From: Oceanococcus sp. HetDA_MAG_MS8 | GTDB lineage: Bacteria > Pseudomonadota > Gammaproteobacteria > Nevskiales > Oceanococcaceae | Assembly (NCBI GenBank): GCA_019192445.1 | Contig: JAHCMK010000004.1 | Location: 124,001 to 188,000, forward strand | DNA length: 64,000 nt | Direction: 5' to 3' | Shown: piece by piece, positions 22,234 to 48,070 of the stretch | Layout of the letters: each line of letters begins with the position of its first letter | Numbering within the stretch: the stretch's first letter is position 1 | Position numbers and translations under genes: made by a program | The notes under the pieces: model-generated | Database searches by the model: none | Seen by the model: only the letters and a program-made list of their open reading frames with translations | What the model was told of the DNA's origin: nothing

Positions 22234-22388
22234 TACCCGCCGTTCACTCTGAAGGCTCCCAGCGCGCAGAATCGCCAGTGGCGATTGCAACAGCTTGGAC
22301 ACCGTCATGGAGCCGTCATCTGGCTGACATGCGGGTCACTCGGCGGCATGTCACAGTCGCTAAACATCATTATCGAGATTACACAGTC

Positions 22389-28685: not shown

Positions 28686-29720
28686 ATGCAGCTACAGTGC
28701 AAAAACATCGACATCCATCATGCCGGACGGCCGATTCTCAGCGACATCAGTTTCACCTTGCCCAGTGGAAGCCTGGGTTGCCTGCTGGGGCCGTCTGGCT
28801 GTGGCAAGACCAGCTTATTGCGTGCCATTGCCGGCTTCCACGAACTAAGCCGCGGCGAAATCATCTTGGGTGAAGGTGTGATCAGCCGGCCTGGAATGAC
28901 ACTCGATCCCAGCCAAAGAGGCGTGGGGATGGTGTTCCAGGATCTGGCCCTGCTGCCTCATCTCAGCGTTGCGGGCAATGTTGGCTTTGGCTTGCACGAC
29001 CGTCCGCGCGCGGAAGTTCAGCAACGCACGCAGCAAATGCTAGACCTCACAGGTCTACGCGGGCTAGGTGAACGCTATCCGCATCAGCTCTCTGGTGGTC
29101 AACAGCAACGCGTTGCGCTGGCACGCGCGCTGGCACCGCAGCCAGCCATGCTTTTGCTGGATGAGCCTTTTTCCAGTTTGGACTCCAGTTTGCGCCCCGT
29201 TTTAGCGCGCCAAGTTCGGGATATCGTCAGTCAAACGAAGACCACAGCCTTATTGGTCACCCATGACCAACATGAAGCCTTTGCCATGAGCCAGCATGTT
29301 GGCGTACTCGGCGGTGGAGTCTTACACCAGTGGAGCTCCGCCTACGATATTTATCACCGACCGGCCAACCAATTCGTCGCCGAGTTCGTGGGCGACGGCG
29401 TATGGCTCAAAGGCCAGCTCGATGCAGCCGGGCGTGTCCATACAGCCATCGGTGAACTGCCGGCCGTATGCCCTTTGCCCCCCAGTCAAGGGGAAGTGAT
29501 GGTGCTGTTACGACCGGATGACATTCAACATGATGACCACAGCCCGCTCAAAGCACGCATCGTCGACGCCAGCTTCCGCGGCGCCAACATCCTATTCGAG
29601 CTGGAGATAGCCGACGGGCAAAGGCTGAAAACCCTGACACCCAGCCACCATAACCATCAGGTCGGGCAGGACCTGGGCATCCGGGTTGCAATGGACCACG
29701 TGATTGCTTTTCCAGCCTAA
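28686..29720 (+). CDS. fbpC: Iron(III) ABC transporter ATP-binding protein
   Basis: The 344-residue ATPase has Walker A GPSGCGKTS (about residues 35-43), Q-loop VFQDLALLPHL, signature LSGGQQQRVALARAL, Walker B MLLLDEPFSSLD and the switch His in LLVTHDQHEA. A C-terminal TOBE-like domain (about 240-344) is as in FbpC/PotA-type proteins. Last gene of the fbpABC-like operon. Confidence 0.93.
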   Translation: MQLQCKNIDIHHAGRPILSDISFTLPSGSLGCLLGPSGCGKTSLLRAIAGFHELSRGEIILGEGVISRPGMTLDPSQRGVGMVFQDLALLPHLSVAGNVGFGLHDRPRAEVQQRTQQMLDLTGLRGLGERYPHQLSGGQQQRVALARALAPQPAMLLLDEPFSSLDSSLRPVLARQVRDIVSQTKTTALLVTHDQHEAFAMSQHVGVLGGGVLHQWSSAYDIYHRPANQFVAEFVGDGVWLKGQLDAAGRVHTAIGELPAVCPLPPSQGEVMVLLRPDDIQHDDHSPLKARIVDASFRGANILFELEIADGQRLKTLTPSHHNHQVGQDLGIRVAMDHVIAFPA

Positions 29721-40138: not shown

Positions 40139-41950
40139 TTACAGGACTGAAACGGAAAACACCGCCAAGGTGCCAGACACTTCATTACTCACCAGCAACA
40201 AGGGCTGCCCGGTTGGGCTGTCGGTGGCCGGAATAAACTTGATGTCTTCCGGGCCCAGATCGCCCACCGTTTCAATGTCATTTTCGGCATCAACTCTGAA
40301 ATCGCGGGTGTTGATGTACTGCACGAAGCTGGCTGCATTGGGATTGGAGATGTTGTACACCATCACCCCACCGACCCGCTCCAGACCGATGAAGGCATAG
40401 GTGTTGCCATTGATCTCGGCAATCTCTACGGCTTCTGGTTCTGGTCCCTTATCGTCGGAGCGATCATCGCCTTCGTTGTCATCATTACTGGCATTGAAGT
40501 TTTCGCCGAGTTGGTTCGCGGTAATCACCTCGAAGTCGTTACCGCTGTCGAACACCGGCCGCAAACTGGCCACATCCCAAATGGTGAAGGAGCGCGCACC
40601 AAAGCTGTAGAGGTTTTCGTAGCTGCAGTCTGGACCGGGCTGACCCGTGGTTGCCAGGGTGGAGCAAGCCCCGGTCACGCCCAGATCGGTGATCACCTTG
40701 AGCCGACCGAGTTTGTCGTCATTGGCGAAATCCGCGCCCAATCTGGCGATGAGGTCTGGGTCAAAGCTGGCACCGGTGCCCGCAATATCGCCAATGCGGA
40801 TTTCATCTAAATAGTGCAAACAATCGCCGTCGTCGAACTCAAAGCCGCCAGCAAGGGTGCAAGCCGCCGCATCGGCCTCGTCCGTTAGATATTCGCGTCC
40901 ATCACCTTCATTGGCCGTCACTAAGTACAGGGCACCGTTCACGGCATAGGCATCAACGGCATCAGGCATGTAGGTTCCAAACACATCCCAGCTACGAATG
41001 TTCACCCCACCATCGCGATTACTGGCATCGATTTCATTGCCCGGAATGCCGTAGTTTTTGAAGCCTAAGCCATTGATGGAAAGCACTTCGGCACTGCTCA
41101 CATCAATGACGGCCACGGCATTGTTTTCCTGCATCACGGCAAAGGCCTGCGATGAGTCCGGGGCAAAAGCGATGTACTCGGGCTCAAGATCTGCAGCGAC
41201 GCTCGCCGCCTTCGCACTAATGCGCACAGGACCGGTCAAGGCTTTACTGCCACCTGCATTAAAGTCGGTGAAATCTGCCGTTTGGGCGCTCAGCCCCGTA
41301 AAGCCGTTGGATACATCAATCACGCTGATGCTGCCCTCAGGGTCGACACTATAGTCGTCATTGGGCTCGCCTTCGTTGGCGCAGAGCACGAAGTTTCCGT
41401 CCGGAGTGAAGCCCACCATATCGGGCAGGGCTCCCACCTCCACGGCCGACAAAAAGGTGCCATCGGTCTGGTAGAAGGCGATGAAGCCATTGTCCTGAGT
41501 GGTGTCTGCAGCCACAGCAACCGCCATGGTGTTGCCCGATACTGCCACGCTGTTCACGTCGCCCATCGTTACTCCGCTTACAGCGGCTTCCACATCGCCC
41601 GCCACATCAATGGAACCGGTGATCGATGGCATAGAGGGGGCGCTCAGGTCCACGATATCGATGGCACCGCTGCGGGCATTGACCACAAAAGCGCTGGAGG
41701 TCGCCGGATCATAGGCAACAATTTCCGCGGCCGACTCATCAAAGTTGGCCGGCAGCGCAGGCGTGCGGCCCAATAAGCCCAGAGAGATAGCGGCATTGGC
41801 ATCGCGACCATCGGCGCCGGGAGCACCGGCCGCACCATCTGCGCCGGGAGTGCCAGCGGCCCCTGGTGCACCATCATCTCCATCACAAGCAACCAAGCTG
41901 GCCGCCATAGTGATGGCACCAACAAGAGCAAATACGGGCTTCAGTGTCAT
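40139..41950 (-). CDS. Choice-of-anchor I family surface lipoprotein with collagen-like stalk
   Basis: This 603-residue exported lipoprotein (lipobox SLVAC) starts after GGGAGGGAG. Just after the anchor Cys comes a collagen-like run of Gly-X-Y triplets (GDDGAPGAAGTPGADG and on, about nine triplets). A beta-propeller-like body of WD/YVTN type follows (IDIVDLSAPSMP, AVIDVSSAEVL), ending with the family C-terminus PEAVEIAEINGNTYAFIGLE and GVMVYNISNP. Members are often labelled alkaline phosphatase-like, but I see no catalytic Ser/Thr motif. A four-unit PhoB-like box lies upstream, suggesting phosphate-starvation control. Confidence 0.85.
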   Translation of the reverse strand: MTLKPVFALVGAITMAASLVACDGDDGAPGAAGTPGADGAAGAPGADGRDANAAISLGLLGRTPALPANFDESAAEIVAYDPATSSAFVVNARSGAIDIVDLSAPSMPSITGSIDVAGDVEAAVSGVTMGDVNSVAVSGNTMAVAVAADTTQDNGFIAFYQTDGTFLSAVEVGALPDMVGFTPDGNFVLCANEGEPNDDYSVDPEGSISVIDVSNGFTGLSAQTADFTDFNAGGSKALTGPVRISAKAASVAADLEPEYIAFAPDSSQAFAVMQENNAVAVIDVSSAEVLSINGLGFKNYGIPGNEIDASNRDGGVNIRSWDVFGTYMPDAVDAYAVNGALYLVTANEGDGREYLTDEADAAACTLAGGFEFDDGDCLHYLDEIRIGDIAGTGASFDPDLIARLGADFANDDKLGRLKVITDLGVTGACSTLATTGQPGPDCSYENLYSFGARSFTIWDVASLRPVFDSGNDFEVITANQLGENFNASNDDNEGDDRSDDKGPEPEAVEIAEINGNTYAFIGLERVGGVMVYNISNPNAASFVQYINTRDFRVDAENDIETVGDLGPEDIKFIPATDSPTGQPLLLVSNEVSGTLAVFSVSVL

Positions 41951-42007
41951 GGGGTCTCCCTCCCTCAGGCAAATCTAGTCAAGTTGAGTTGCTAAAGATG
42001 CGGTCGC

Positions 42008-42051
42008 TTTGTGACCAAATCTTGTCGGTTTTGTGACCTTACGATGACGCA
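42008..42051 (-). promoter_or_regulatory. PhoB-box-like array of four 11-bp units
   Basis: Read on the minus strand, half-sites GTCAT, GTCAC, GACAA and GTCAC (plus-strand positions 42044-42048, 42033-42037, 42022-42026, 42011-42015) start exactly 11 bp apart. Two of them extend to GGTCACAAA. Pho boxes are tandem 11-bp units of TGTCA plus an AT-rich part. The array ends about 60 bp before the start of the choice-of-anchor gene. Confidence 0.6.
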
Positions 42052-42202
42052 TCGGTGGCAAAGCTCCGAGGCTTGACCCCATCGCCAGAGCGCCACACAG
42101 CAAACCCTCATCGAGTTCAAGAAGCACCCCATGCCTGCCTCTTGCTCACTTCACATACCAGCTGGTATGTTAAAGCGCACCTGACTCATACGGAAAGAAC
42201 AT

Positions 42203-42772
42203 ATGCCTTGGGCTCGGCTTGGCTACACGCTGGCGACTACATCTAGGCGCGGCGCTATCGGTATTGACGAAACCGGCCAATTAGCCGGGCGAGTGTTGCC
42301 CTCCGATTTGGACTTCAACCGCCACGTCAACAATGGGCGGTATTTGTCCTTGGCGGACTTAGGGCGTATCGACTGGTTTGTGCGTACGGGCATGCTGCGC
42401 ACCGCATTGAAGAATCAGTGGCGGCCCATCATTGCCTCGGGAACCGTGCGCTACCACCGACCACTCAAGCTTTGGCAGCCCTATCGTTTAGACAGCTCCT
42501 TGGTGGCTTGGGGCGCACGCTGGGCCTTTATGGAGCATCGCTTCTTTGCCAATAACCGCGATGGTGAGGAGAAGCTCTTTGCAACGGTCGCCATTAAGGG
42601 CGCATTCCAAGGCCGTGAGGGCGTGATCGAACCCGCCAGGTTAATGGCCGCCATGGGCGAGCAGCATGATTCCCCGCCCATTCCTGCCTGGATTGATGAT
42701 TGGCAGCAGGGTGAGAATCGCTGGAAAGCCATGGAAGAGGCTGTACCGCAACTTTCCGTTGGCGCTGGCTAA
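42203..42772 (+). CDS. Acyl-CoA thioesterase-like hot-dog protein
   Basis: The 189-residue protein has a single hot-dog domain. The signature LPSDLDFNRHVNNGRYLSLA holds the catalytic Asp/Asn and His-Val-Asn-Asn-Gly of the 4-hydroxybenzoyl-CoA thioesterase/THEM6-like group. Later strands include IASGTVRYHRPLKLWQPYRL. It probably hydrolyses acyl-CoA esters. ATG at 42203 follows GGAAAG. Monocistronic. Confidence 0.85.
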   Translation: MPWARLGYTLATTSRRGAIGIDETGQLAGRVLPSDLDFNRHVNNGRYLSLADLGRIDWFVRTGMLRTALKNQWRPIIASGTVRYHRPLKLWQPYRLDSSLVAWGARWAFMEHRFFANNRDGEEKLFATVAIKGAFQGREGVIEPARLMAAMGEQHDSPPIPAWIDDWQQGENRWKAMEEAVPQLSVGAG

Positions 42773-42913: not shown

Positions 42914-45900
42914 TTAATGAAAATCCCGCGACACGGTGCGCAGCCGCCCTAGCAGATGATCCTGGGCCTGGAGTCGGTCCACGATGAGGTGGCGCACCCG
43001 GCCATCGCGCTCCATGTGGCCACTGGCCAGGAGCAATCGACCCTGTAGCACTTCGGCGCGATACTTCTCCAGCACCCGCGGCCAAACCACCAGATTGCTC
43101 ACGCCGGTTTCATCTTCCAGGGTCAAAAACACCACGCCACTGGCGGTGCCGGGCCGTTGCCGATTGGTGACCAAGCCGGCCACCTGGCAGCGACGCTTGT
43201 GGGCCAGGTTTTCCCATTGGGCCATGGTGAGCAGCCGGCGTGGCAGGTGGGGCCGCAAAAGCTGCATGGGGTGCTGGCCCAGGGTCAACCCCAGACTGGC
43301 GTAATCGGCCAGGCAATCTTCACCAGCTGTGGGGGCCGGTAGTGCGGCGGCCTCCTCGGCTACGGCCGGCAGGCTGGGCTCATGATCCACTGCCGCCATC
43401 TGCCAATGCGCCTGGTGCCGATGTCCAGCCAGGCTACGCAGGGCCCCAGCCCGAGCCAGAGCTTGCCGATCGCGGGTTTGTAAAGCCGCCTTTTGTACCA
43501 ACTCGGCCACGCTGCGGTAGGGCCGCTGCGCCGCCACACGCTGCGCGGCCTCGGCACCCAGTTGCTGGATCTGGTTCAGCCCCAGACGCAGAGCCGGAGG
43601 CGACGGCGCCTGCCCTGCCGGGCTGGCATCGACTTCCAGTTGGCTCTGGGCGCCAGAGGCGTTGACATCCACCGGCCGTACTTCCACGCCCATACGGCGA
43701 GCATCCTGCACCAGCTGCGAAGGCGAATAAAAACCCATGGGCTGGCTGTTGAGCAAAGCGGCATAAAAGGCCGCCGGATAATGGCATTTGAGCCAAGCCG
43801 ACACATAGACCAAAGCGGCAAAGCTGGCAGCATGCGATTCGGGAAAACCGTATTCGCCAAAGCCCTGCACCTGCTGGAAGATGCGCTGGGCAAATTCCGG
43901 GGCATAACCATTGGCAGTCATACCCTGCTTGAGGCGTTGCTCGAACACCTCCAGCCCGCCCTTGCGCCGCCAGGCCGCCATGGAGCGGCGTACCTGGTCG
44001 GCTTCTCCGGCGGTAAAGCCAGCCGCAGCCATACAAATGGCCATGACCTGTTCCTGAAAGATGGGCACGCCCAGGGTGCGGCCCAGAATACGCTCCAGCC
44101 CCGGCGGACAATCCACGGCTTCTTCGCCGCGACGACGACGCAAGTAGGGGTGCACCATGCCGCCCTGAATCGGCCCTGGCCGCACAATGGCCACCTCGAT
44201 GACCAAGTCATAAAAGGCCCGTGGTTTCAGCCGGGGCAGCATGGTCATCTGCGCCCGCGACTCCACCTGAAAAACACCGGTGGATTCGCCGCGCTGGAGC
44301 ATGGCGTAGACCTTGGGGTCTTGGTCGGCCAGCACCTGGGCCAGATCCAGGTCGCGTTGATGGGCACCGCGCACCAGATCAAAAGCCTTGTGGATAGCGG
44401 TGAGCATGCCCAGGGCCAGACAATCCACCTTGAGCAAGCCCAAAGCATCTAGATCATCCTTGTCCCACTGAATGATCGTGCGCTCGGCCATGGCGGCATT
44501 CTCGATGGGCACCAGTTGGGACAGGGGCGCATCGCTGAGCACAAAGCCGCCCACATGCTGGGACAAATGCCGGGGAAAGCCGATGAGCTGCGGGAGTAGC
44601 TCAAATAACTTTTGCAGCACCGCTGAACTCGGGTCAAAACCCAGCTCCTGCAGACGTGCGAGCAGGCTCTCCGGCTGATCCCACCAGGCCAGGGCGCCGC
44701 TGAGCCGATCCAGTTGATCCCGGCTCAGCCCCAGAGCCCGTCCCAGGTCACGCAAAGCACTGCGTTTGCGATAACAAATCACGGTGGCAGCCAGGGCGGC
44801 CCGGTCCCGACCATATTTGCGGTAGATGTACTGAAAGACTTCCTCGCGCCGGGCATGCTCGAAGTCCACGTCAATATCCGGGGGCTCGTTGCGCTCCCGT
44901 GAAATAAAGCGTTCAAAAAGCAGCTCAGAGGTGGCCGGGTTCACGCAGGTAATGCCCAGGTAAAAGCACACCGCCGAGTTGGCGGCACTGCCCCGCCCCT
45001 GGCACAGAATGCCCTGGCTGCGGGCAAAGCGAACCAGGTCATGCACGGTGAGGAAGTAGGGCTCATAGCCCAACTCCTCAATCAGGCTAAGCTCCTGCTC
45101 TACCCGCTGGCGGATGGGCGCCGGCACCGCGCCGCTAAAGCGCTGAGCCAAGCCCTCTTCGGTGAGCTGGCGCAAATAGGCGCTGGCGGTCTGCCCGGCC
45201 GGCACCAACTCCGCTGGATACTGATAACGCAGGCTATCCAAAGAAAAGTCACAACGCCGGGCAATGCGCAGGCTTTCTTCCAGCAATTCTGGTGGATACA
45301 AGCGAGCCAGCCGGGCACGTTGCCGCAGGCTACGCTCGGCATTGGCCTGCAAGGCCCGGCCGCATTGGCGCAAGGGCTTGTTCAGCCGAGTCGCACTCAG
45401 GCAATCCTGCAAGGCCTTACGACTGCGCCGGTGCATCAACACCCCGGTCGCCGCCACGGCCGGCAAGCCATGACGCCAGGCCAGAGCCTGGGCCTGGCGC
45501 AGGCGCGCCTCATCGGCACCATCGCAGAGCTGCTCCACCGCCACCCAGGCCTGCCCTGGATAATGTATCGCCAGCCAAGCCGCCAGGTCTTCATCGGCAT
45601 GCTGCGCAGGCTGATCCTGGTCCGGCTGGGCCGGCTTCAAACCCAGGGTTTGCGGCACCAGCAGGCATAAAGCCTGCGGTGCCAACTCCAGCACATCGGC
45701 TTGTGTCAGGCTGTAGGCGCCCTTCTCGGCCCGGCGTCGCCCCCGCGTAATCAAGCTGCTGATCTGCTGCCAGGCGGCGAGACTGGGCGCCAGCAGCACC
45801 AGGCAACCGCCGTCTTCGAGCTGGATTTCGCTGCCATGAATCAGCTGCATGCCCAGACTTTGGGCGCGCTGGTGCGCCCGCACCACGCCAGCCAAGCTGC

Positions 45901-46033
45901 ATTCATCGGTGAGGGCCATGGCGGTATAACCCAGCCGATGAGCCTGCTCCACCAGCTCCTCCGGATGCGAGGCCCCGCGCAAGAAGCTGAAGTTCGACAG
46001 GGTGTAGAGCTGGGCATAAGCCGGGCTGCTCAT
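42914..46033 (-). CDS. dnaE2: Error-prone DNA polymerase III alpha subunit
   Basis: From the ATG at 46033 (overlapping the imuB stop as ATGA) the product has 1,039 residues. The PHP domain comes first (YTLSNFSFLRGASHPEELVE). The DnaE palm carries PDIDVDFEHARREEVFQYIY with the catalytic acidic pair, and FGEYGFPESHAASFA is also typical. A C-terminal HhH/OB region ends the protein (VFLTLEDETGVSNLVVWP). It lacks the tau-binding tail of replicative DnaE1, as usual for DnaE2/ImuC. It extends past lesions during SOS mutagenesis, brought to the clamp through ImuB. Confidence 0.96.
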   Translation of the reverse strand: MSSPAYAQLYTLSNFSFLRGASHPEELVEQAHRLGYTAMALTDECSLAGVVRAHQRAQSLGMQLIHGSEIQLEDGGCLVLLAPSLAAWQQISSLITRGRRRAEKGAYSLTQADVLELAPQALCLLVPQTLGLKPAQPDQDQPAQHADEDLAAWLAIHYPGQAWVAVEQLCDGADEARLRQAQALAWRHGLPAVAATGVLMHRRSRKALQDCLSATRLNKPLRQCGRALQANAERSLRQRARLARLYPPELLEESLRIARRCDFSLDSLRYQYPAELVPAGQTASAYLRQLTEEGLAQRFSGAVPAPIRQRVEQELSLIEELGYEPYFLTVHDLVRFARSQGILCQGRGSAANSAVCFYLGITCVNPATSELLFERFISRERNEPPDIDVDFEHARREEVFQYIYRKYGRDRAALAATVICYRKRSALRDLGRALGLSRDQLDRLSGALAWWDQPESLLARLQELGFDPSSAVLQKLFELLPQLIGFPRHLSQHVGGFVLSDAPLSQLVPIENAAMAERTIIQWDKDDLDALGLLKVDCLALGMLTAIHKAFDLVRGAHQRDLDLAQVLADQDPKVYAMLQRGESTGVFQVESRAQMTMLPRLKPRAFYDLVIEVAIVRPGPIQGGMVHPYLRRRRGEEAVDCPPGLERILGRTLGVPIFQEQVMAICMAAAGFTAGEADQVRRSMAAWRRKGGLEVFEQRLKQGMTANGYAPEFAQRIFQQVQGFGEYGFPESHAASFAALVYVSAWLKCHYPAAFYAALLNSQPMGFYSPSQLVQDARRMGVEVRPVDVNASGAQSQLEVDASPAGQAPSPPALRLGLNQIQQLGAEAAQRVAAQRPYRSVAELVQKAALQTRDRQALARAGALRSLAGHRHQAHWQMAAVDHEPSLPAVAEEAAALPAPTAGEDCLADYASLGLTLGQHPMQLLRPHLPRRLLTMAQWENLAHKRRCQVAGLVTNRQRPGTASGVVFLTLEDETGVSNLVVWPRVLEKYRAEVLQGRLLLASGHMERDGRVRHLIVDRLQAQDHLLGRLRTVSRDFH

Positions 46034-47442
46034 GCGAAGACCCCATGCAGAAACCATTGCTCGGGTCGCTCATGCTCGCGATACACCCAGACCTGGCTGC
46101 CATCCTGCCGCCGAGCCTGGTGGTAATCCCGGCGCATGGGCGCGCCATCCCACCAGCCGGTTTCCACCCTTTCGGCCGGCCCCACCCAGGCCAACTCCGC
46201 TGCCGCCAAGGGGCGCGGTTGGGGCAGTAACCACAATGGGCGAGGATACGGCGGTGGCGGCGGCGCCTGGCTATGATCCAAAGGCTCGGCCTGCGTCCAG
46301 GCCCGCTCCGGCCGATGCTCATCCACCGCCTGCGGGCGGCCCAGGGCTTGTGGCCCCAGACGCGCTGCCAACCGTGCCCAGAGGGGGCTGCATTCGGCTA
46401 CAGCATCCGCCGCTCCTGGCAACAAACTCTGCTGCGGAGCCTCCGGAGCACAGACCTCCACCACGCGCAGGCGCAGACTGCGCACCGCCGCCGGGAGCTG
46501 CTGCCGCTCCCATTGCAAAGCACTGACCTGCTCCAGCCAAGCGGGGTCGCGACTAGGCATCCCCGGCCAGGTTTCCCAGGCCAGCTCCCCGCCACCGGCC
46601 AGATCCGCCTCCCAGCGCAGGGCCCGCGCCAGCAGGTCCTGCGCCAACAGCCAGGCTTGCAGCTCATCCAGCAAGCCCTGACGCATGGGAGCCAGTTCCG
46701 CCAGAGTGGCAATTTCGGGCTCGAAGTGGCGCTGACCCAGCCATTCCGCTGGCGGGCAAAACCATACGCGCGGGTCGGGGGCCTGGCCCAGCAGCCGATC
46801 CAGGGCATTCACAAAGGCCACCCCACAACGGCGTTTCAGCCCAGCCCGCGGCAAAGCCAACACCTGTTGCAAGTGCTGCACGCCCGAGGCCTGTAGGGTC
46901 TGGGCAGCACGGCCATCCAGCAATTCCAGCGGCAAGGTCTGCAGCGCCTGCTCCCAGTCTGGATCGGGCGCTACCACCGAGCGCGGCCGCCAGCGGGCCA
47001 GCATTTCTGCCGCCAAGGGCGTCGGTGCCAGCGCCCATTGTCGGCGCCAGCCACGGGGCCATTGCTCCAGCAGGCGGCGCAGCAGGGGTTTCAAGCCCCC
47101 AAACAAGCGCAGGCTGCGGCCAATTTCCAGCACCACGGTGCCCGGCTCCACGGCGCTGACCTGGGCACTGCTGCCATAGGCCAGGCAGAGCAGGCGTAAC
47201 TGCGCAGCCTCCAAAGCTTCAGGATCAGGCTCCAGGGCCTGCAAGCTGGGCAGCAAGGCGCGGGCAGCGGTCAGGGTCTGCCCCAAGGGAATGCCCGCAG
47301 CCAGCACCTGCGCATCGGCCTGCTGGATGCGCTGCCGCGCGTCGATCAGAACCTGTGGAGGAGCCTCGCCCTCAGGCGGCGGCCTGACCGCGGTCTGACA
47401 ATCCAGCGCCAGCGCGGGTGCGTGCAGACAAAGCCACCACAT
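46030..47442 (-). CDS. imuB: Y-family polymerase-like protein ImuB
   Basis: The 470-residue protein starts MWWLCLHAPALALDC, the usual ImuB opening. It overlaps the end of imuA by 71 nt and dnaE2 by 4 nt. The fold is that of Y-family polymerases, but the normal acidic catalytic residues are not evident, as expected of ImuB. A helix-hairpin-helix-like segment, LQASGVQHLQQVLALPRAGL, lies near residue 185. The C-terminal region, rich in Pro, contacts partners. ImuB is the hub joining ImuA, DnaE2 and the beta clamp. Confidence 0.94.
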   Translation of the reverse strand: MWWLCLHAPALALDCQTAVRPPPEGEAPPQVLIDARQRIQQADAQVLAAGIPLGQTLTAARALLPSLQALEPDPEALEAAQLRLLCLAYGSSAQVSAVEPGTVVLEIGRSLRLFGGLKPLLRRLLEQWPRGWRRQWALAPTPLAAEMLARWRPRSVVAPDPDWEQALQTLPLELLDGRAAQTLQASGVQHLQQVLALPRAGLKRRCGVAFVNALDRLLGQAPDPRVWFCPPAEWLGQRHFEPEIATLAELAPMRQGLLDELQAWLLAQDLLARALRWEADLAGGGELAWETWPGMPSRDPAWLEQVSALQWERQQLPAAVRSLRLRVVEVCAPEAPQQSLLPGAADAVAECSPLWARLAARLGPQALGRPQAVDEHRPERAWTQAEPLDHSQAPPPPPYPRPLWLLPQPRPLAAAELAWVGPAERVETGWWDGAPMRRDYHQARRQDGSQVWVYREHERPEQWFLHGVFA

Positions 47443-48070
47443 CAGCCCGCTCCGGTTGCAGGCAAACCTGCTGTGGACGCAGCCCCCGGCCCTTGAACAA
47501 GTTCAGTTGCAAACCACCCTGCTGTTGCTGCAGAGCCAGCCTTAAACGGGCCGGACTGGCCTGTTGGGCGGTGCGCGCTGGGCGAAAGGCCAGCAGCAAC
47601 ACGCCTTGTTCTTCGGCAGCCAGGCTCAAGCGCCGCAACTGTGCCGGGTTGGCTTGCTCCAGCCAGGCCAGCAGCACCGGATAGGCCCCGGACTGAGCCA
47701 CCGTCTCGGCGGCCCACAAGCGTTCTTCGGCTTTGGGCTGCACCCAGAGTTGCTGGCGCAGATCCAAACCCCATTGCTGTAAGGCCGGTGCATAGGGAAT
47801 CAGCGGCGGCGCCAGCCAGCAGCAACGTCCGGCAGCACGCAGCAGCGGTTGGAACAAGCTGATTTCGCCAATCCCCGTCGTGGCCGGGAAGCATTCCACC
47901 AAGCCCTGCCGGGGCCAGCCGCCTCCGGGTAGCGCGGCATCCAGTGCGGCAAAGCCACTGTTCCACACTCCGCGCGGCATGGCCTGCGCCCGGGCCGCCG
48001 TCCACACCTGGCCTTGCTGAAGCAAGGGTTGCAGGGCCTCGGGCAGGTCCTCCGGACGCGGGCCGGTCAT
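47372..48070 (-). CDS. imuA: ImuA (RecA/SulA-like mutasome protein)
   Basis: The 232-residue protein has a RecA-like core: GFAALDAALPGGGWPRQGLV, where an ATP loop is degenerate (CFPATTGIGEISLF), and CCWLAPPLIPYAPALQQWGL. The C-terminus, LQLNLFKGRGLRPQQVCLQP, is typical. It overlaps lexA by 4 nt and imuB by 71 nt. ImuA is required with ImuB and DnaE2 for damage-induced mutagenesis. Confidence 0.93.
   Translation of the reverse strand: MTGPRPEDLPEALQPLLQQGQVWTAARAQAMPRGVWNSGFAALDAALPGGGWPRQGLVECFPATTGIGEISLFQPLLRAAGRCCWLAPPLIPYAPALQQWGLDLRQQLWVQPKAEERLWAAETVAQSGAYPVLLAWLEQANPAQLRRLSLAAEEQGVLLLAFRPARTAQQASPARLRLALQQQQGGLQLNLFKGRGLRPQQVCLQPERADVVALSARTRAGAGLSDRGQAAA

Follow-up and report, generated by a model that had tools for sequence, protein, structure and literature searches.

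The locus and its upstream half-sites

We analysed a window of 64,000 nucleotides from the genome of Oceanococcus sp. HetDA_MAG_MS8 (contig JAHCMK010000004.1, positions 124,001 to 188,000), and within it the region upstream of a gene encoding a lipoprotein of the choice-of-anchor I family (Table 1). The product matches both family profiles over its full length. The earlier note had described a collagen stalk on this protein. A short tract of Gly-X-Y triplets does follow the lipobox, but the Pfam Collagen model does not match it at an E-value of 0.001.

The region upstream of the gene contains an array of PhoB-like half-sites (42011-42061) whose sense is that of the minus strand, as is that of the gene. 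From 5' to 3', half-sites 1 to 4 are each followed by a short spacer (CGTA, AAAA, GATT, and AAAG, respectively), and 60 bp separate the end of the last half-site from the ATG of the lipoprotein gene. The positions given before for four half-sites (42011, 42022, 42033, and 42044, at exact 11-bp steps) were thus confirmed and assigned to the minus strand. They had been read as a double Pho box; the half-sites are as claimed, but a fifth one upstream had been missed (42061-42055), which makes four to five in all.

Table 1. Features of the lipoprotein gene and of its upstream region in the window.
Feature	Position	Strand	Basis
Choice-of-anchor I lipoprotein gene, 603 aa	40139..41950	-	NF038117, 518.4 bits (cut-off 300); PF22494, 351.2 bits (cut-off 32)
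Choice_anch_I beta-propeller domain, aa 75-590	40181..41728	-	Profile match; predicted model, pLDDT 82.6
Collagen-like tract, nine Gly-X-Y triplets, aa 24-50	41801..41881	-	Translation; pLDDT <50 at 19-48
Lipoprotein signal peptide, lipobox LVAC (Cys22)	41885..41950	-	Read by eye from the translation
-10-like hexamer CATCTT, 3/6 to TATAAT, A2 and T6 kept	41995..42000	-	10-bp offset rule from 47 homologous promoters
PhoB-like half-site 4, TGGTCAC, closest to the gene	42011..42017	-	Sequence and scoring
Half-site 3, CCGACAA, weakest of the four	42022..42028	-	Sequence and scoring
Half-site 2, AGGTCAC	42033..42039	-	Sequence and scoring
Half-site 1, GCGTCAT; exact GTCAY-N6-GTCAY pair	42044..42050	-	Sequence, scoring, and pattern search
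Fifth, upstream half-site, TTGCCAC	42055..42061	-	Start of the best three-half-site match

Scores of the array compared with chance

The outcome of scoring the half-sites with a PhoB matrix, as the earlier note had proposed, differs between the two matrices that we used. The first was an E. coli-type 18-mer Pho matrix made from nine sites. It gave low scores to the focal pairs (3.7-6.5 bits, under many chance matches in the window) and 24.4 bits to the genome's own phoB box. After these low focal scores we dropped it for a clade matrix, and we report both. The clade matrix draws on phoB promoters of other genomes in this order; it leaves out the host genome and the choice-of-anchor I gene and comprises 21 distinct words from 31 phoB upstream regions. 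Most of the 31 regions examined have a sense box, usually near -72. We left out the host's own word, near-duplicates, and the words of three loci (L060, L071, and L073) that lack a well-defined sense box at the customary position.

With the clade matrix, the best focal pair has a score of 11.8 bits, with p = 0.001 for a region of 200 bp and p = 0.0052 for one of 252 bp. Three tandem focal half-sites reach 15.5 bits and four reach 18.7 bits, and neither score was attained in any of 5,000 simulated regions. When both strands of the window and of three other stretches of the genome were searched, the four-half-site score was reached at a single one of 221,692 positions, the focal site itself. A covariance model of the phoB boxes, built from sequence alone, gave one match over the genome (E 0.92); it missed even the genome's own phoB box and is uninformative.

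These results bear on the possibility that GTCA-like words have come to lie in this arrangement by chance. The low E. coli-type scores are what one would expect in that case, and so is the number of exact GTCAY-N6-GTCAY pairs in the whole genome, which is hardly larger than that of a reversed control pattern (30 versus 23 matches). Because of this, a single pair proves little, and it is the tandem arrangement and its conservation that carry the proof. Given the three- and four-fold scores, and the controls on conservation, spacing, and promoter geometry described below, which contradict it, we find a chance arrangement scarcely credible. We also considered the divergent thioesterase gene (42203-42772) as the controlled gene and rejected it, as the plus-strand reading in that direction has no score (-0.3 bits for k = 2, p = 0.66).

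Conservation of the box upstream of homologues

We collected 110 loci of homologues, some from related genomes and others among the top 80 loci in a wider contig search, of which 7 had no usable upstream DNA, leaving 103. Start codons were set by a simple signal-peptide rule, and some upstream stretches are therefore displaced. Phyla were assigned by hand from the record titles. This gave 73 loci of Pseudomonadota, reduced to 66 after dropping near-identical upstream regions.

Within the 200 bp upstream, 49 of the 66 non-redundant Pseudomonadota homologues carry the box on the coding strand (p <= 0.05), a count that became 48 in a rerun because p-values come from simulations and borderline loci flip between runs. 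At p <= 0.01, the box is found in 34 of the 66, and 17 have none at p <= 0.05. The controls gave far fewer matches: 2/66 on the antisense strand, 1/64 further upstream (-600 to -400), and 0/66 inside the gene. Changing the spacing had a similar effect, with 48/66 at a spacing of 11 and 3-14 at spacings of 7-10 and 12-16, and ten column-permuted matrices found a box in 1-10 of the 66 homologues. The closest full-length named homologue among those listed, from Pseudohaliea rubra (66% identity in the best segment), has a box at p = 0.001.

Across all phyla, a sense box was found in 57 of the 103 homologues (p <= 0.05) and an antisense box in 13. The 30 loci outside Pseudomonadota show no such asymmetry with two half-sites (4/30 sense, 4/30 antisense); with three half-sites, the sense count is 10/30. 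In eight cyanobacterial loci, a cyanobacterial box motif reached p <= 0.05 in 0/8 with two copies and in 1/8 with three. The four Bacillota homologues L140, L145, L150, and L156 all have PhoP-like repeats upstream (three copies, p <= 0.03; antisense 1/4), too few for a claim. We regard the comparative evidence, which is drawn from sequence, as decisive for the proposed regulation.

Promoter geometry

The upstream regions of 47 homologues could be anchored on the box. In these, the last half-site is followed after exactly 10 bp by the start of a T-A-x-x-x-T pattern (T in 62%, A in 57%, and T in 66%). Hexamers with at least four of the six positions of TATAAT occur at this offset in 11 of the 47 promoters, against 0-7 at other offsets. 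The rule points to the -10-like hexamer of the focal promoter (Table 1). No sigma-70 consensus promoter was found in the region upstream of the lipoprotein gene, which suits an activator-dependent promoter.

Phosphate genes of the host and of its relatives

The host encodes PhoB and PstB, both above the family cut-offs, and a phoR-pst-phoU operon. Its phoB carries a box and is, with the focal site, among the 30 GTCAY-N6-GTCAY matches; the 250 bp scanned upstream of its phoR-pst operon contain none. We examined seven stretches, holding 10 of the 30 matches. In three of them, the match lies upstream of OlsB-like, metallophosphoesterase, and PhoD-like genes, all below the NCBIfam equivalog cut-offs; OlsB and PhoD are usual Pho targets. 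In the other four, it lies before a TonB-dependent receptor gene, before an unscanned gene, or in or close to ordinary housekeeping genes.

The host has a second choice_anch_I gene, in which the domain stands behind a 5'-nucleotidase C-terminal domain. This fusion gene has a four-half-site box of its own (18.2 bits), and the fusion genes of two other genomes have boxes as well, in G001 (same genus) of 19.9 bits and in G002 of 19.1 bits. The paralogue (L046:8097-11870, minus strand, contig G000:C2) lies between trpE-like and trpG-like genes, named by eye, an order also found in G001.

Among the 33 related genomes with a match, seven have phoB or pst next to the choice_anch_I gene. In six of these (G008, G017, G019, G023, G033, and G048), phoB is on the same contig at 15 kb or less, and in G041 (locus L032), pstS adjoins the gene. 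The gene order is phoB-phoR-pstSCAB-phoU-choice_anch_I in G048 and phoB-phoR-porin-choice_anch_I-pstC in G019. Five loci have an adjoining pstS (L031, L032, L033, L036, and L037), four of them within the set of 66, and none has a box of its own, which would fit control from the phoB side. In the wider set, a tblastn search of the 5 kb around the best 80 loci revealed no convincing neighbour of the pst or phoBR kind: 7/80 had matches, all at 27-40% identity, e.g., to other ABC transporters and response regulators. The pho linkage is a trait of some relatives only.

The array might also be bound by another regulator of the OmpR/PhoB family that recognises 11-bp direct repeats. This geometry is common to the family; in the genome, the PhoB model has two more matches over its full length, which stay under the cut-off at 199 and 180 bits, and the third half-site is poor. 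Against this, it is a matrix drawn from phoB promoters that finds the box before most homologues, its permuted versions fail, and some related genomes have phoB or pst close to the gene. We consider another regulator very unlikely. The focal array is, with high confidence from the sequence evidence, a candidate PhoB-activated promoter. The 17 homologues with no box, the five pstS loci, the boxless phoR-pst operon of the host, the low E. coli-type scores, and the 3/6 match of the focal -10 hexamer count against this reading. Direct computation gave the array and its conservation, the geometry of the homologous promoters, and the association with pho genes; binding by PhoB and induction are what we infer. 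The placement of the lipoprotein gene in the phosphate-starvation response, which the earlier note had put forward, is supported by the clade matrix, the conservation in Pseudomonadota, the 10-bp offset of the -10 element, the box of the paralogue, and the pho linkage.

Other features of the window

The best-scoring PhoB-like site of the window is elsewhere (22302-22330, plus strand). It has three half-sites at 11-bp steps (22.8 bits) and is followed, about 59 bp on, by the likely ATG (22389) of a gene for a glutathione-dependent disulfide-bond oxidoreductase (NF008731, 505 bits). Three further half-sites (29496-29524, minus strand, 18.0 bits) are antisense within the open reading frame of an ABC transporter ATPase and probably reflect chance. 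At 42914-48070 (minus strand), there is a cassette resembling the translesion cassette imuA-imuB-dnaE2, with an error-prone DNA polymerase (NF004225), ImuA (NF033429), and between them an open reading frame lacking an NCBIfam match, which we take to be imuB.

A model for the promoter and the function of the lipoprotein

Because the same box precedes relatives in many bacteria, the lipoprotein may have a role in phosphate scavenging. Under phosphate limitation, phosphorylated PhoB would bind the direct repeats head to tail, with one monomer per 11-bp half-site. The bound protein would recruit the RNA polymerase to the weak -10 element 10 bp past the last half-site, and the lipoprotein gene would be switched on. 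Its product would be exported, anchored to lipid via Cys22, and spaced from the membrane by the short collagen-like tract. Outside the cytoplasm, its beta-propeller, which has seven blades and numerous invariant acidic residues, could then free phosphate from organic phosphoesters, the metal of the predicted enzyme being probably calcium.

The main rival to a phosphoesterase accepts that the box is bound by PhoB and gives the protein a non-enzymatic role, either as a surface or adhesion protein or as a binding or structural partner under phosphate stress. The collagen-like tract would suit such a role, and beta-propellers frequently bind ligands. In the fold comparison, the predicted model resembles seven-bladed propellers (best Z of 32.2, 2.3 A across 284 residues), most hits of the structure search are WD40 scaffolds, and no solved structure, catalytic ones included, is close to the lipoprotein by sequence. 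Other observations speak for an enzyme. Asp, Glu, Asn, and Arg abound at the invariant positions, which comprise many acidic residues and the pairs P176-D177 and P329-D330. Fusions to phosphoesterase domains recur: beyond the paralogue, cyanobacterial members have 5'-nucleotidase C-terminal, endonuclease/exonuclease/phosphatase, and RTX domains as fusion partners, and two of these members lie near phosphonate-binding proteins. There is also a weak match, below the cut-off, between PF22494 and a protein annotated with an "esterase-like activity of phytase". A non-enzymatic role is a real possibility, to which we give about one chance in three. By analogy, an exported phosphoesterase that depends on a metal and resembles an atypical alkaline phosphatase is the most likely identity of the protein, a reading that we favour with moderate confidence; its catalytic activity and metal are predictions.

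According to record titles, the family occurs in marine and soil bacteria, cyanobacteria, Bacillota, and haloarchaea. A broader and more tentative proposal is that all its members, standalone or fused, are widespread, overlooked, exported calcium-dependent beta-propeller phosphoesterases, which would be core members of the Pho regulon in Pseudomonadota (with PhoP perhaps as the regulator in Bacillota) and the bacterial source of MSP130. This animal biomineralisation protein is presumably a homologue of the choice-of-anchor I family; if the proposal is true, skeleton proteins would be tied to a phosphate-scavenging ancestor. Inventories of organic-phosphorus enzymes, built on PhoA, PhoD, and PhoX, may miss a class. 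In the open-licence literature, where older annotation names may differ, we came across no paper that connects the choice-of-anchor I family with phosphate; passages of PMC11171427 and PMC10434189 deal with choice-of-anchor K and J. The analysis would extend the Pho-regulated gene set to the whole choice-of-anchor I family, which may be hidden under the name "atypical alkaline phosphatase".

Comparison with known systems

The focal promoter shares with PhoB-activated promoters such as those of phoB, pst, and phoA the direct repeats like CTGTCAT on the coding strand at 11-bp steps, the -10-like element at a distance of 10 bp from the last half-site (as seen in the homologue set), and a host with PhoB, PhoR, and Pst. 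It differs from a classical Pho box in having four to five degenerate half-sites, one of them poor, and a weak -10 element, instead of one strong pair.

Among the phosphatases, PhoX is also a beta-propeller, described in the relevant passages of PMC11098088 as six-bladed with calcium in the active site, whereas the model of the lipoprotein matches seven-bladed ones. No PhoX is present among the sequence matches, nor in the rows shown of the fold search, which are filled by seven-bladed WD40 propellers.

A further likeness is to the atypical alkaline phosphatases, PhoA-aty, reported in passages of PMC4548154, PMC6156274, and PMC6723241 from Synechococcus (PhoA), dinoflagellates, and haptophytes. 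These phosphate-starvation proteins of cyanobacteria, proteobacteria, and algae are described as having conserved Asp/Glu residues and Pro-Asp motifs and as lacking a classical phosphatase domain; the invariant acidic residues and Pro-Asp pairs of the lipoprotein are of the kind described. The text of PMC4548154 and PMC6723241 that concerns these motifs ties Pro-Asp to calcium. A Nodularia gene named PhoA-aty is annotated as a phytase-like esterase in the corresponding part of PMC9846622, but that Pfam family is only weakly similar to PF22494. Synechococcus elongatus, our control genome, encodes a PF22494 protein. The name choice-of-anchor I refers to the varied anchors of these proteins and not to a function; the link to phosphate is what our analysis adds, and with it the family would gain a physiological address in phosphate starvation.
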